This document shows, one piece after another, positions 3,629-61,000 of a stretch of DNA of 64,000 nt. The notes under the pieces were generated by a model. The model worked only from the letters and a program-made list of their open reading frames with translations, was not told where the DNA came from and searched no databases. Location: contig NC_092671.1 in the NCBI RefSeq assembly GCF_964355755.1, forward strand, positions 14,426,501 to 14,490,500. Reading direction: 5' to 3'. The position numbers were made by a program, and so were the translations under genes. Each line of letters opens with the position of its first letter. Position 1 is the stretch's first letter. The stretch is from Antedon mediterranea. Lineage: Eukaryota; Echinodermata; Crinoidea; Comatulida; Antedonidae.

Positions 3629-6432
3629 AAATATTGTAGTATGTGGAGATTTGTCAGTACTGAGAATCGGGTATGGCAACAGCCAATTTAGAAATCGTTG
3701 TTATTTGTTCGAAACCGACTACTCTGGGAAAACTATTTCTCTTCACTTTTGTGGCGTAAACACCACTTTCATTCACATTAATATCATCTTAGTCATGTCA
3801 TCGCCATAACATCTTCATACTATTTCACTATTATCACATTCTTGTCATTTTTCTAATGCTTTCGTTCCATCTTTAAGGAACACGAACAACATTCATTAAA
3901 CATTTAGTTTAAATCGCGATCATCACCAATTAGTTGGTGAAGCAGAGAACCGTAGTTTTTAAACATCGAAATATCCTAGGATCTTCAATTCAAACCAACT
4001 TATTCAATGGAATGAAAACTACAGTATAGTCCATAATACTATTATGGACTATACTTTTATTATAAGATATCTGGTTCGAATAGAGGTACGGTATCTGTGT
4101 ACGTACTTTCATGAGAAAGGCTGTGACGAGTTAAAAGAACCGTTTACTTGTACACGGGTGCATGTATCGATGATTTGAACAGCTTAGTGGACTTAATTAA
4201 ACATACTTAATTGAAATTAACGTTTTGTGTGGATTGTCTTACTGGTTCGTCGTCTGAGAATCCTGTAACCCAACGATTATTTCAATATGATTATACAGCC
4301 TGCATAATGGTGTGTTAAGTAAAGCGTAAATATAACAAAGCATCTGAAATAATTTAATTGCGGTTTACTCCCTGGTTTTGAATAATCTTCTTATTTACGC
4401 CTTTATATTTTGACATTTTCGTGTGAAAACATTTTTTAAAATAAAGAAATGTTGCTAATTCATCAAAACGTCACGAAACATCTCACAAAGTTGACGCGCA
4501 TGCGTCACGTCATTATTTTATTCGAATGTGCGTAAGTAAAGTGATGTAGGGCTTTTAATGAAGAATTACTCCCGAATTACTCAATAATAATCATAGGAAT
4601 GATGCATTGCAATTCATTTAGGTTTAATTCATTAATAATCAGATAAACAAACTCTTGAAACTGACCTCATTGAATCAATGTGAACAGATTACAATGGAAA
4701 GGGTCGATTAAAATAACTGTAATGCTACTTTGTGTTTAAGGCAATCTCACGGCGGTTATTGGTAAAGCAAGTTTATGTGTGCCATTCCCACGAACGAATT
4801 AAAGTGCCTACATTAGATTATCTATCACAAATTTTCTTATTTTACAATATGATTCGATGTTTCATGGTTTTGTCTATTAAATTCGGCCTTTTTCTTTTGT
4901 ATCAGCTCGAAATTCAGCAATTGTGGATTGGATGTGTACTACTAGTACGTATACGTGTATATAGTGATTTCTGTCTCATCAAATGCACAAGAATCGTTTG
5001 TTTAATTTAGGTAATTTTTGTTGTCACAAGACGCATGGATGGTCCTGTTCACTGCCTCAAATTAGGCTCGAGTTAAAAACTTTCCAGGAACATTTCCTTA
5101 CCGTACTTTGCCATGTTGAGCCCAATATACGTAGGCCTTTTATGTCATTCTATGTGGTAATGTGTCCGGCTTCTAAGACAGCCATTTAAATTTCAATTTA
5201 TAAAGTTTCATTTTAATAAAGTTGAATGAAATCAAAAAGTGAATTGGATACGTGCCGATACTGTTGGCCTATTTATACCATACCGTACTTCTAGTCTGTT
5301 CAGTTTTGACAAAGGACGCAACTAGTATTTACCAGGTGCATAAATCAACATTTTGAATGATTTAATATTAGATAACAGAATATCTTGATTGAGATATTAA
5401 CCTGCTAATCGTTATCTGTTAATTTCATATGTAATAGTATATGATGCACCTGATCAGTTTATTATAATGTTTTATCAAATCCTCACAAATCTGTCAACAT
5501 ATCCATGCAATAGGATATCAGAAAAAAAATAAACGACCTAGCAATATCCATTGAGCTACAAACCTGTGATTGTATTTGTCTTTATACGAATAGGAGAAAA
5601 TAATCGAAATTCGTGACAAATTGTGTTAATTCACTACCTGTTCACACGCCTTTGTGATTGACAAAGTCATTTATTATTTAACAATCACTGAATTATCGGA
5701 TCACGTCAAAACACAAGTCTAATTTTCGATTGTGTTATAGATAACCATAACGTATCATATTAATAATTTTGTATAGGACAGAAATCAATACGATCAATTG
5801 AATGGAGCACTCCCTCAGGCGGTCGTGTGTCGACCGAACCCTGGATTATTTCTCTGCTTTGCGGATCACCTGCAGAATTGTGCGCGATTGTGAGTTAGCC
5901 AAGCAGAAAATCTGTTGGTAAGCCGTCTTGGGAAACACTTCGAACAACGTTTCTTCAATTGGAATGTCTTATCCGATCTTAATTGACCGATTAAAAGTAG
6001 GTAATGCCTAATACACAAATACATGTTGAGATGTGAGCCCATCTTCCAAAAATACAATTAGAGTAAACATCGTAGAATGTAATATTTTAATTCTACAACT
6101 TAAAAATAACGCATAAAGTATGCCTCTATAAACCTTCACATCCATTTATAAAACGGTATTCTTTAAAGAATAGGGCATATTTCTCTAAAACAAGAAGCAA
6201 GAATTATACTTATTACACATTAGCCCACCAACGGCTTAACGTTTAATCTAAAAGACGATATGATTATGTAAAACGTGATGTAGAACCGAGTAAAACATGC
6301 CGTAAATGGGTTAAACGGTATATTAAGCCACATCACGTCACTTATACAATAAGATATTACAGCAAAGTGTTCGTTATGCGATCATCATTAACGATCCTGG
6401 AAAATTGAGGAGAGGAACTGCAGTCAACTTGA
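3629..6432. other. Non-coding stretch with one perfect hairpin
   Basis: No gene recognised. At 4023-4055 a 16-bp arm (AGTATAGTCCATAATA) is followed by one base and its perfect reverse complement, a 33-bp palindrome. ORFs at 4.7-5.2 kb and 5.87-6.06 kb have no protein-like composition or splice context. Confidence 0.5.
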
Positions 6433-6612
6433 CAACCACGTAACCTCCTCACATTGGACACATAAAAACAACCACGTAACCTCCTCACATTGGACACATA
6501 AAAACAACCATGTAACCTCCTCACATTGGACACATAAAAACAACCATGTAACCTCCTCACATTGGACACATAAAAACAACCACGTAACCTCCTCACATTG
6601 GACACATAAAAA
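6433..6612. repeat. Minisatellite, 36-bp unit, five copies
   Basis: Five head-to-tail copies of a 36-bp unit beginning CAACCACGTAACCTCCTCAC, differing only by a C/T in CACGTAAC versus CATGTAAC. As 36 is a multiple of three and the unit lacks stops on the minus strand, two minus-strand frames stay open through the array. This explains two apparent ORFs without implying a protein. Confidence 0.95.
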
Positions 6613-7710
6613 CAAAAAGAAGCCAAAACAATGTTTAATCTGGAAAATAGTGAATCCTGTTACATTGTTATGTTGTGGAGTTGACGGACACAGACAAACA
6701 GGTCATCTGTGCGTCTCTGGAGAATGCCTAATCAACCGGGTGTGGTTATTCGCAGTACTAAACTATTTTTGCTACCGTTATACTTTTTTCAACATTTCTT
6801 TTTCTTTTTTTTATTTTTATACTGTCGATATAACATTTTGCGGTTGTTATCGATTTCTATAATATAATTTTAGCCTAATTTTGATTAACTCATTTTCCAA
6901 ATATAATCAAGTAGCAAATAGGGTATAAGTTGTCGACTGCTGGGTAAACATTGCTACAAACACACGTATCTGAGTTTATAAGATGACAAGAAATACTCCC
7001 TGAATAAGCGTGTATTAAGTGCAGAACAAACACACTTAAAATATTACCAGTACATCATCGTTTTCTTTTCATCGGATTTGATTAATTAACCGACAGTTCT
7101 TTTGTTTCAAACATTGTTTAACCAGCAATATTCGTTTACTTGAAATCACAGTAATGTATAAAGACATCACCCTGAATGTAAGCAGAGAAGTTTATGTTGG
7201 AATTGTGTACGACTCGTGGCTAAATTGTAGTGTCTCGCGTTCGGTGTATGTTGGTGGCGACGAGGCCGTCAATCGGTAAACAACGCACGCAGTACTCGCA
7301 GTCAGTAGTAAATAAGAGCATTGCGCTCAAAGTCAAATACCATTTTGTTACAAAGAAATATTCTTCGGAACAGTCAAAACTGATTAATTGTTTAAATAAT
7401 CTATTTAGATTTGATATCAATGTTGGCAATTGACTTCGTGATTGCCCACGTTTTTCAGCACTAACTTCTGATTTACGTTGTGCTGCCGATCCTGCACGAT
7501 TTAAGCGCTCGGAGCAAATAAGCGCACCGTTTATTGATATTAAATCTAATTAACCGTTTATTATTGCTTAAAACCTACAGGATAGATACAACGGTGTCGG
7601 TTAGTGTTAGAAAAGATCGACATTTTATACGATACGTCAGTGGAATTCATCAATTTATATATCCACCTGCACTGTCCAATTTTCAATATTGTTATTGGAC
7701 GCGTCGCGAC
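6613..7710. other. Non-coding stretch, nothing recognised
   Basis: No gene, RNA or transposon end recognised. At 7220-7433 both strands are open over the same interval, with no sign of which, if either, is coding. Confidence 0.45.
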
Positions 7711-7962
7711 GACGATCAAATGATGTTAACCACGATGAAGACGACGACGATCAAATTATGTTAACCACGATGAAGACGACGACGATCAAATGATGTTAAC
7801 CATGACGACGATCAAATGATGTTAACCACGATGAAGACGACGACGATCAAATGATGTTAACCACGATGAAGACGACGACGATCACATGATGTTAACCACG
7901 ATGAAGATGACGACGACGATCAAATGGTGTTAACCACGATGACGACGATCAAATGACGACAG
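7711..7962. repeat. Minisatellite, about 35-bp unit, eight units
   Basis: Eight copies of a unit containing GATCAAATGATGTTAACCAC followed by GATGAAGACGACGAC. GATC recurs at 7714, 7749, 7784, 7810, 7845, 7880, 7918 and 7947, so the period is 35 bp with occasional 26, 29 and 38-bp steps. An internal GAC triplet run varies in length. The period is not a multiple of three, so it is unlikely to be translated as a repeat. Confidence 0.92.
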
Positions 7963-12357: not shown

Positions 12358-40306
<27,949 letters not shown>

Positions 40307-41792
40307 TTTTTAATTTTCCAAAATGATACCATAGGCTTGATTCAGTCGTTTTTCGCAATGGTCTTTTCGTCCGTTCTCCGACTTCCATGGAACCAAGGCT
40401 AACGTAAGTACGTACTCGTTGTTACAACCTTCCTACCAGCTGCTTAAAATTGAGGGCGCTCGTCATAATTATACCAAAATATTCAGATACACTTTCCAAT
40501 AATAATTTACGGATATTCTGATATCAAAAATATTATTGCTGTCGATCAGTAAAAATAAGATGTAAATATTGCGGGTTTTATGTGAGCAAAAATGAAATTC
40601 TGACACGGATCGCGTTTTTTCCTGTAATATTTATTATTTATTTGTCATCACTTATCAGTGGCACACACTGTCGTGATATGGTGCAACCAAAATAAAACAA
40701 ATGAGCAATAATAATGAAAGAAAACAAAACAAAAGCAACGGAAAAACAAAAATATATATATATACTATAAACTATATATAATAGGTACACAATTCATCAA
40801 GATCTTTTGAGTTTTGTGTTTCCTTTCAACTCTGTATCGACTTGTTTTTTGTATTTTCATGATGATGATGATTATGAATAATAACAAATATTAAATAACA
40901 TTTGATTCCATTTGAAGGACCTTTCATAGTATATAATATTTATAATAACTCCATTTCAAGATTCCTAAAGACAGACGATCCTTTTATCAAAATGTCCATT
41001 ACTTTCAAAATTATAGGCCTACATGGAATCGATCATCCCTTCTGACAGTTCGATAATTAATCAGTTAATCATACCGTTCAGTCGTACTTGGAATACTGTT
41101 CATTAATTTTTAATTCAATTATTTCTTGTACACAATCTCAGCGTATTTCCAATGTTCAGAACAAATTTATTAGATTCCTTACTCGCACTTGTCCTAATTA
41201 TAATGTTTTTTATACAACTCTTTCAATTCTGTGTATGATTGTCCTCTTGTTGCTTTCTTATAAGTTGAATATACCAACTCGTAGGCTACTCGCAGCAAGT
41301 GTTTGCTTCACGTTCATTGTGGTCGTGTTGAATGCACAAAACGAGGTATTTTTCAGCGGTTACCTAACACATTTAATGTGCTTGTTACATGTTTGGATAT
41401 TGATTTATTAATGATAGTTTAAATGTATTCAAGGGTAACATTGTTAAATCTCTATAATGTTCTGATCTTTGTTTATGTTATTGTTGCTTAATCGAATGTA
41501 TTTGTATGGTTTATTATGTTTAGATTCAAATAGTGGTGGTTTCATCGATGTTGGTTGTCAACTGAATAAAATAAAAATACAATGTATACTTATATTAATG
41601 TGTAGAAAATATAATACCATAAGAATTAGGTGTGTAAGAAGAAAGTGTAAAAAAAGCTGTATTCTATGTAATTTATGTATAAATGGAAAGAATAAATGTG
41701 GGACACACCCACCAAAGAGAGAAACAAAATTAATCCTAATATTCAATTGTCAATGCCATGGTATACAATAACGCATTAATTGTATGACAACG
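40307..41792. other. Interval between PDE3 and the thioesterase array
   Basis: Includes the PDE3 5' flank, a LINE-tail-like piece at about 40620-40700 (minus) and the LINE fragment at 41060-41260. The 3' flank of thioesterase copy 1 must also lie here on the minus strand. The plus ORF at 41469-41771 shows no recognised domain and is probably antisense noise. Confidence 0.5.
41060..41260 (+). mobile_element. LINE reverse-transcriptase C-terminal fragment
   Basis: A plus-strand frame encodes YLEYCSLIFNSI and then ISNVQNKFIRFLTRT, matching the pattern (VLEYxxxVW... IExVQxRxxRxI) that follows the reverse transcriptase domain in CR1/jockey-like LINEs. It is heavily decayed and only about 60 codons remain. 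Confidence 0.55.
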
Positions 41793-58001: not shown

Positions 58002-61000
58002 CTAATACAAGCGTTGTGGTTTTCCCATTGTGCTCTTGATGTACAATGAACGTACATTTTGCCAGTTTTTCTTCAACAGCGACACCAAGAAGTTGATAGC
58101 AAGACTGATGTTGGCAACAAGCTCATCATCAGTCAACTCAATATGGCCGACAGCAACAGCAAGACACAGAACCTAACAAGAAACAAAAAATAACTGTATG
58201 GATAAAGAAAGTTCACATAAAACCAAACATTGGAGGTTCAAGGTACAGAATATTTTCAGTTCATTGGGTTAGAATAGTGAATACACGCTGTATTACCAAT
58301 GTTTTCGATCATATAATTTGTCTGTAGGTTTCGTCTCGAACAGTCACTTGTCTAACTGTGCAAGATAGCGACATACAGTTTAATATTTGCAGTCTTTCTT
58401 GCCTTAAGATGGCATAAAAGGCCAACATGGCATTAATATTAAGGTGTCAATTAGACTGCAAGAAACAACAATGACATTGAAAATGTGTTTATACCTTTTT
58501 CATCTGAAACTTAATGGTGGCTTTGACTTCTTCCACTTTGTTGGTCAATGGCTCTTGATGAGACACAAGGGTAGGGAATTTTCCTGCCTTGTTCAAACCA
58601 GGCCCAAGAAGCTTGGGAATCTGCTTGATGAGCGAGTCTGAAGCAAGGAAAGCATCATATTTCTTGGCTGCAAAACAAATGAATCCAGATCTCCAGTTCT
58701 AATAGTGTTTAATGTTGTTCTATGGGAAAAAGTACTATTTTGGGGGCATGTTTGTAGGTTTCGTCTCGAACAGTCACTTGTCTAACTGTGCAAGATAGCG
58801 ACATACAGTTTAATGTTTGCAGTCTTTCTTGCTTAAGTTGACATAAAAGGCCAACATGGCATTAATAATAAGGTGTCGATTAGACTGCAAATATAATGTA
58901 TTCAAGCAATACCTCAACAAACAAGATAATGAATCAATATTACTATTTATAGGCAAACAGATGTTATGGTAATTAATATGATTACTCTAGTACAACTTTT
59001 TATACCAACAAAACTGAGTTTCTTGAATAATATTTTTAATTATAATAATTTTAAATAAGTTTACAGCCATAACCGTAATCTAATACTTTCAACAATTTTT
59101 AGTACCTAATTTTTTGACCAGTTTCTTGTTTTTGTTAAGCTTTTTCAATGAGTCCGCATTCATGCATGGAAAGCCAAGATCTTGGGCCTCATCACAATGT
59201 TGTTGATCTCCAAGAATACAGATTGAGAACTTTGGTCTTGGAACCTTGTGCAACCTAAAGAAAGAGTTACAATTTGTAGCCAGATTATAATCACACTAGA
59301 TAAGGTAATTCATTCATTAGATGTCTATTAGATATGGCAATATTCACTGCATATTATACATACAGTCGACCTTCTCATTTACACATTTCTCAATTACACG
59401 CCGTTTGAACAATGACGTCATCAGCCAATTAAAAAAAATAACATAAAACTTTTACATACAGGTACAGTACCTACTAAAGTATTATCTTCTTAATTCATTA
59501 AATTATCCCAAAACAATTATTTAAAAAAATGAAAAAATTAATAAAGCAAAGGTTATTACACACGTATTCTGTTTATTTCGAGTTTAAAAGTTGTCTAGGC
59601 CTAGATTAAAAAGTCAGTGGCCTTGGCCGTTTGGTCTAGGCCTAAGCTAGTGGTCAGGAGATCATCATCCCCACTGTTGGAGTGCATGAAAAGCACCCTG
59701 CACATGTTTTTGAAAAAAATCAAAGATTGATCGCGAACTTTAAAAAGGCTACACACTATGACCACACTGTAAATTCTGTTTGGTTTGTGCATGTTTTTAC
59801 GATATAAAAAAACACTTGACTCTTATAACAATTTTAAACTTTGTTGTCAGCCTTTCTGGGAATTCCATTTTACTTGCTGTCCGATCCACACTAGATTCTA
59901 GTAGCTTTCAAAATGTAAAATATATGCGGATTTGATATTATTAATTCAAGAACAGGTTTGTAAATTACAGTTTGTATCAAAATGTGCAATAGGCCTATAA
60001 AAAAAGTCAACGATGGAATTTTGGTACAGAGAATGAGTGTAACAAAAAGCAGAAATATTATTAATGTTTTTGGCAGTCAAAGTGTTAATTTACATTGTTT
60101 TATACTGTATTTGTTTTAATATTGCTTTATTGTTCTTCTCACTATACTATGCACAGTAATACATAGTCAAAGGTCTTTGTTTGGGCATGTTTTTACCTCT
60201 GGTTTTAATAGAGGGCGCTTTTTTCCGAACCTTTTCATTTACGAACGCCTCTCAGACCAAGGGGTACGTAAATGAGAAGGTCGACTGTACTACTATTACT
60301 GAATTATTGTACAACTTATTAAAAATCGACATTGTGATTAGTTCACACTTCCATAAATGACAATTGGCCATTCATTACTATACTGTACAGTAGAACCTCC
60401 ATTTTACGTACGGTACGGGACCGAAAGGCGTACGTAAAACAAAGGATTCGTAAAATCAAGGTTGACCTTAAATTGACCCCAAATACGTAGCGATCGTAGC
60501 TGGCCGTGTTTGCCTTCTGTACATTATGCAGGTGGTCACTAGCTAGGCCTTGCCTAGACTATTCAGGCCAGGCTAGCAGGCCTAGCAAGATGTGAAGCCT
60601 AACTAGAAAAGTACAGTATATACAGGCTGTGCGATGTTTAAATAAAGTGTAAAATATAATTGTTTTCTATAAAAAAAACCAGTCGCTGCTTTATGGGGAA
60701 TGCACGTGCGTAGCTTGTCCCACACACAGCAGAATTCCTCACACAGCCATGCTTGTGGCTTTGTTGTTGTTAAATTGCGCCCTCAATGTAAGAAAATGAC
60801 ATGACGTCATCGGTTATTTTTAGCGTACGTAAAATCGAGGGAACATAAAATCAGGGTACGTAAAACACAGGTTCTACTGTACTTGGTAATTTTATTCAAT
60901 GCGCTATTCTCAGTTTAGTTTCTCTTCAAATATTTTTAAGATAAGACATGCATATACATCATTGAATAGCGCATTAATTATTGGTTGCATCGATCCAACT

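Follow-up and report, generated by a model that had tools for sequence, protein, structure and literature searches.

A pair of related units in consecutive introns of RPL10A

The window, a 64-kb stretch of the genome of the crinoid Antedon mediterranea (354 Mb in 18 contigs), lies on a contig of 40.9 Mb. Minus-strand reading frames between positions 59256 and 58005 join to encode the C-terminal three quarters of uL1/RPL10A, and the translated exons matched solved uL1 chains at an E-value of ~1e-84. The initial annotation had placed two snoRNA-like units in introns 3 and 4 of this gene in the sense orientation. Mapping of the intron limits confirmed this arrangement, with both units on the minus strand like RPL10A itself (Table 1).

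Table 1. Positions of the RPL10A exons and introns and of the snoRNA elements within the window
Feature	Position	Strand	Length, sequence and basis
RPL10A exon 3	59106-59256	-	reading frame and protein match; upstream limit approximate
RPL10A intron 3, host of unit 2	58668-59105	-	438 nt; gtactaaa...ttgcag; GT...CAG ends and reading frame
Unit 2, H/ACA snoRNA, including 3-nt tail after ACA	58746-58890	-	145 nt; repeat, fold, boxes
Unit 2, first hairpin	58817-58890	-	fold, alignment
Unit 2, H box ACAUUA	58811-58816	-	sequence
Unit 2, second hairpin	58752-58808	-	pocket arms as in unit 1
Unit 2, ACA box	58749-58751	-	sequence
RPL10A exon 4	58495-58667	-	reading frame and protein match
RPL10A intron 4, host of unit 1	58173-58494	-	322 nt; gtataaac...ttgttag; GT...TAG ends and reading frame
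Unit 1, H/ACA snoRNA, including 3-nt tail after ACA	58316-58461	-	146 nt; repeat, fold, boxes
Unit 1, first hairpin	58387-58461	-	9-bp base UUGCAGUCU/AGACUGCAA; fold
Unit 1, H box AUAUUA	58381-58386	-	sequence
Unit 1, second hairpin	58322-58378	-	pocket arms UGUCGCUAU (58373-58365) and ACG (58334-58332)
Unit 1, ACA box	58319-58321	-	sequence
RPL10A exon 5, coding part including stop	58002-58172	-	reading frame and protein match

Without the tails, the repeat covers 58319-58461 (143 nt) and 58749-58890 (142 nt), and the two copies align in register over 143 columns with six substitutions and a one-base gap. Their likeness extends from the first paired base on the 5' side to the ACA box on the 3' side; the three bases following ACA do not agree between the units, and the intron flanks show no relationship, with 8 identities in 33 positions and 23 in 77. 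In line with the earlier claim, similarity stops at the predicted RNA ends. When introns 3 and 4 were compared by blastn, the unit was the sole match with a strong E-value. A DNA search across all 354 Mb located the unit sequence at these two places and at no third one, and a covariance model built on the units and run on the window returned units 1 and 2 only.

Because only two copies exist in the genome, the units do not represent a transposon. More generally, two insertions of a small repeat or mobile element into the gene could account for the sharp unit ends and the unrelated flanks with no need for RNA genes, but we regard this explanation as extremely improbable, given that both copies lie in the sense of a single host, that no target-site duplication is obvious, and that the units combine H/ACA anatomy with a matching rRNA target (see below).

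Both units show the anatomy of box H/ACA snoRNAs

Along the sense strand of RPL10A, each unit consists of a hairpin, an H box, a second hairpin and ACA. The alignment of the repeat, the folds and the boxes thus agree with the initial description of two similar units, each with two hairpins, an ANANNA and an ACA box. The sequence between the hairpins conforms to ANANNA in both units (AUAUUA and ACAUUA). The first hairpin of each is closed by a 9-bp base (UUGCAGUCU/AGACUGCAA), its upper part being loosely defined, while the second hairpin is built on a CUGUA...UACAG stem, of which the outermost pair is lost in unit 2. In a mature H/ACA RNA, ACA stands three nucleotides before the 3' end (PMC7991803). 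As the likeness of the units breaks off right after the ACA found in both, its limits coincide with the points at which a mature H/ACA RNA would be expected to begin and end.

Folding of both units, the check suggested with the initial annotation, gave structures better than those of dinucleotide shuffles (z = -4.24 for unit 1, -2.99 for unit 2), and both adopt the hairpin-hinge-hairpin-tail fold that defines box H/ACA snoRNAs; the second hairpin alone reached z = -2.99 in either unit. The alignment of two near-identical rows yielded no covariation support for the fold. The pocket-to-box spacing, previously described as correct, is so for hairpin 1, with 15 nt between the upper stem and the H box, but falls slightly short in hairpin 2, with 13 nt to ACA compared to the usual 14-16. 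A generic scan for the hairpin-H-hairpin-ACA shape on both strands of the 64 kb ranked unit 2 second among 21 places and missed unit 1, whose minimum-energy first hairpin is branched and conflicts with the single-hairpin rule of the scan. The top place, 58010-58158 on the plus strand, is antisense to RPL10A exon 5 and scored slightly above unit 2; we take it as a chance match. Since such an antisense stretch outscores unit 2, shape alone proves little, and it is the repeat, the sharp ends and the target match that are decisive for the H/ACA reading. These observations support the assignment of the units as box H/ACA snoRNAs, paired in introns in the sense of RPL10A.

It is conceivable that a functional snoRNA comes from only one of the copies and that its partner, for which unit 2 is the better candidate, is a decaying duplicate. 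Compared with unit 1, unit 2 lacks one pair at the foot of hairpin 2 and one nucleotide of the hairpin 1 upper stem, and its fold is the weaker one by the above z-scores. However, neither unit shows damage to its H box, its ACA box or any part of its second pocket, and the change in the H box still fits ANANNA, so that we find decay of one copy somewhat unlikely.

The second hairpin matches a known pseudouridine site in 28S rRNA

The first rDNA locus of A. mediterranea (L009) is mostly N, and usable 18S and 28S sequences were taken from other, scattered copies. The resulting rRNA set contained a full-length 18S (L007/L016); for 28S, L015 supplied the part between the 5' end and GGGTAAAC, and L013 and L014 the greater part of the 3' domain. 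The position of 18S within the A. mediterranea loci was found with the help of yeast-like rDNA in L010, whose LSU is N beyond base 5000 and was left unused; viral contigs, searched by pattern for 28S, returned no match.

Targets were scanned without fixing the upper stem, the pocket or the distance to the box, and with four pocket definitions. The second hairpins of both units gave an outstanding match to 28S GCGU[UC]AUAGCGACG, with a score of 30.8-32 and 22.4 for the next target. With a cleaned rRNA set, the next-best target scored 15.8, and 10 of 3000 shuffled guides attained a score of at least 30.8. Nine bases of the 5' arm (UGUCGCUAU), extendable to 10, and three of the 3' arm (ACG) pair with the rRNA, with one G-U pair on the 5' arm in one 28S copy. 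The predicted target uridine is the bracketed U of A. mediterranea 28S GCGU[U]CAUAGCGAC. We slid a table of human 28S modifications (Taoka et al., PMC6182160) along this 28S, and in the unique best register, which fits 19 of 21 bases (next register, 11 of 21), the predicted target corresponds to human position 4390, a pseudouridine at 99% (PMC6182160). In human 28S, Psi4420 (older number 4390) is guided by SNORA63 (PMC9941101). By our count, ~100 of the ~1100 uridines in the rRNA set correspond to human Psi sites, and that the match falls on one of them therefore lends it further support. Hence, the search for pocket complementarity to rRNA advised in the initial annotation revealed a strong match to a known 28S pseudouridine site for hairpin 2 and none for hairpin 1.

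The second hairpin most likely guides the 28S uridine that corresponds to human Psi4390, a conserved site near the catalytic centre of the ribosome. The weakest points of this assignment are the distance of 13 nt between the second pocket and ACA and the 3-bp 3' arm. Both would also be compatible with genuine H/ACA snoRNAs that guide another RNA or are orphans, the match at 28S Psi4390 being coincidental, as would the finding that ~1 in 300 shuffled guides do as well per pocket definition, with four definitions tried. Coincidence nevertheless appears quite unlikely, considering that the matched uridine is a known pseudouridine and that identical CUAU...ACG edges frame this uridine in the SNORA63 pocket.

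For the first-hairpin pockets, no convincing target emerged among 18S, 5.8S and 28S rRNA and the human snRNAs. Pairing of the first hairpin with the Psi4373 site was weak and contained mismatches, and this candidate was rejected. The first-hairpin guide may be dead or aimed elsewhere.

Relation to SNORA63

The units escaped recognition by Rfam. Running them against its models, as the initial annotation had advised, produced no family match, and no snoRNA was found at the locus either at the gathering score or at E-values up to 1. The SNORA63 model (RF00092) had no match in the window, the units staying below its gathering cut-off, and its best match in the A. mediterranea genome, with 27.7 bits compared to a cut-off of 90, is located elsewhere and is not credible. 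As a positive control, we put the Rfam SNORA63 consensus through the same target scanner; it selected the 28S uridine chosen for the units, and with an equal score; here the 5' arm contributes four pairs and the 3' arm nine.

The units thus resemble SNORA63 (E3) in that a 3' hairpin pocket with CUAU...ACG edges surrounds the same 28S uridine, and their 3' hairpin is predicted to guide 28S Psi4390, the function that characterizes SNORA63. They differ in the distribution of pairs over the 5' and 3' arms (10 + 3 in the units, 4 + 9 in SNORA63), in a distance to ACA that is one nucleotide shorter, and in their host gene, which is RPL10A for the units and EIF4A2 for SNORA63. The units may be very diverged SNORA63 orthologues or independent guides for the same site.

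Divergence and origin of the copies

According to the initial annotation, the second-hairpin guide is unchanged between the copies while the first has drifted. This is literally correct, as six of the seven differences fall within the first 83 columns (first hairpin and H box) and the remaining one sits where the second hairpin ends, but the imbalance between the hairpins is not significant (binomial ~0.13 by our own arithmetic). The near-identity of the units extends to apical loops and other free bases, a pattern that points to recent copying or to gene conversion more than to selection acting only on the guide.

Of the marks of a retroposed snoRNA (snoRT), the units possess RNA-precise ends, whereas inspection by eye revealed neither an A-tail nor an obvious target-site duplication beside either unit. 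Marks of an old retroposition could have decayed, and retroposition, which the initial annotation had put forward beside strong selection on the RNA, is a possible origin. Alternatively, a copy could have moved between the neighbouring introns via an RNA intermediate, for example by templated repair or reverse splicing, which would leave exact RNA ends without the usual retroposition marks in a copy that is still fresh; we consider such a route unlikely.

We consider it highly probable that the units form an H/ACA snoRNA pair read out with the RPL10A pre-mRNA and that their 3' hairpin guides the Psi4390 equivalent; the copies would have arisen by cis-duplication. Each unit would be transcribed as part of the RPL10A pre-mRNA. 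By analogy with established H/ACA biology, splicing would be followed by debranching of the intron and by trimming up to the ends that the core H/ACA proteins protect. In the assembled RNP, the 3' hairpin pocket would hold 28S GCGU-[Psi N]-AUAGCGACG by 9-10 base pairs with its 5' arm and 3 with its 3' arm, directing pseudouridylation at the site that SNORA63 serves in humans, while the 5' hairpin would be structural or have an unrecognised target. The two copies, duplicated in cis between adjacent introns, would probably provide one and the same guide.

That snoRNAs can duplicate within a gene into a neighbouring intron is already well documented. Introns 5 and 6 of RPL13A in the sponge Suberites carry two H/ACA snoRNAs that are 94% identical (PMC3412847), nearly the same arrangement of near-identical H/ACA RNAs in neighbouring introns of one ribosomal-protein gene, although the host gene is a different one; the comparison is one of arrangement. 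Chicken snoRNA paralogues have originated by intragenic (cis) duplication (PMC2653536), likewise with the copy placed in a neighbouring intron of its host gene, whereas the flanks of the RPL10A units retain no trace of the event. Intragenic snoRNA duplication has also been referenced for nematodes and platypus (PMC3412847). New here is a pair of snoRNA genes that go unrecognised by Rfam and for which a conserved function is predicted. They add a putative guide RNA outside Rfam for a pseudouridine near the peptidyl-transferase centre, and suggest that the job of SNORA63 is done in this animal by a two-copy RNA housed in a ribosomal-protein gene. The finding is of use for annotation and for tracing the movement of guides between introns, and leaves the general picture unchanged.

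Additional features of the rDNA copies and the window

The 28S copies are interrupted. L013 and L014, minus-strand 28S 3' fragments, both abut unrelated sequence precisely at TAGCCAAATGCC, the insertion site of the R2 retrotransposon, and in the minus-strand 28S 5' part L015, 28S stops after GGGTAAAC. This suggests R2-type insertions in this rDNA. L010 (BMQD01000062.1), filed under Planomonospora parontospora, contains a eukaryotic (yeast-like) rDNA unit with 18S, 5.8S, 28S and 5S; eukaryotic rDNA in this bacterial contig is apparently contamination.

Elsewhere in the window, an open frame of 275 codons with several hydrophobic stretches (39482-40309, minus strand) had no match in Pfam and possibly encodes a single-exon membrane protein. 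Near-perfect tandem arrays are found at 6432-6615 (36-base unit), 7707-7956 (35-base unit with a higher-order 61/96 pattern) and 25969-26160 (32-base unit).
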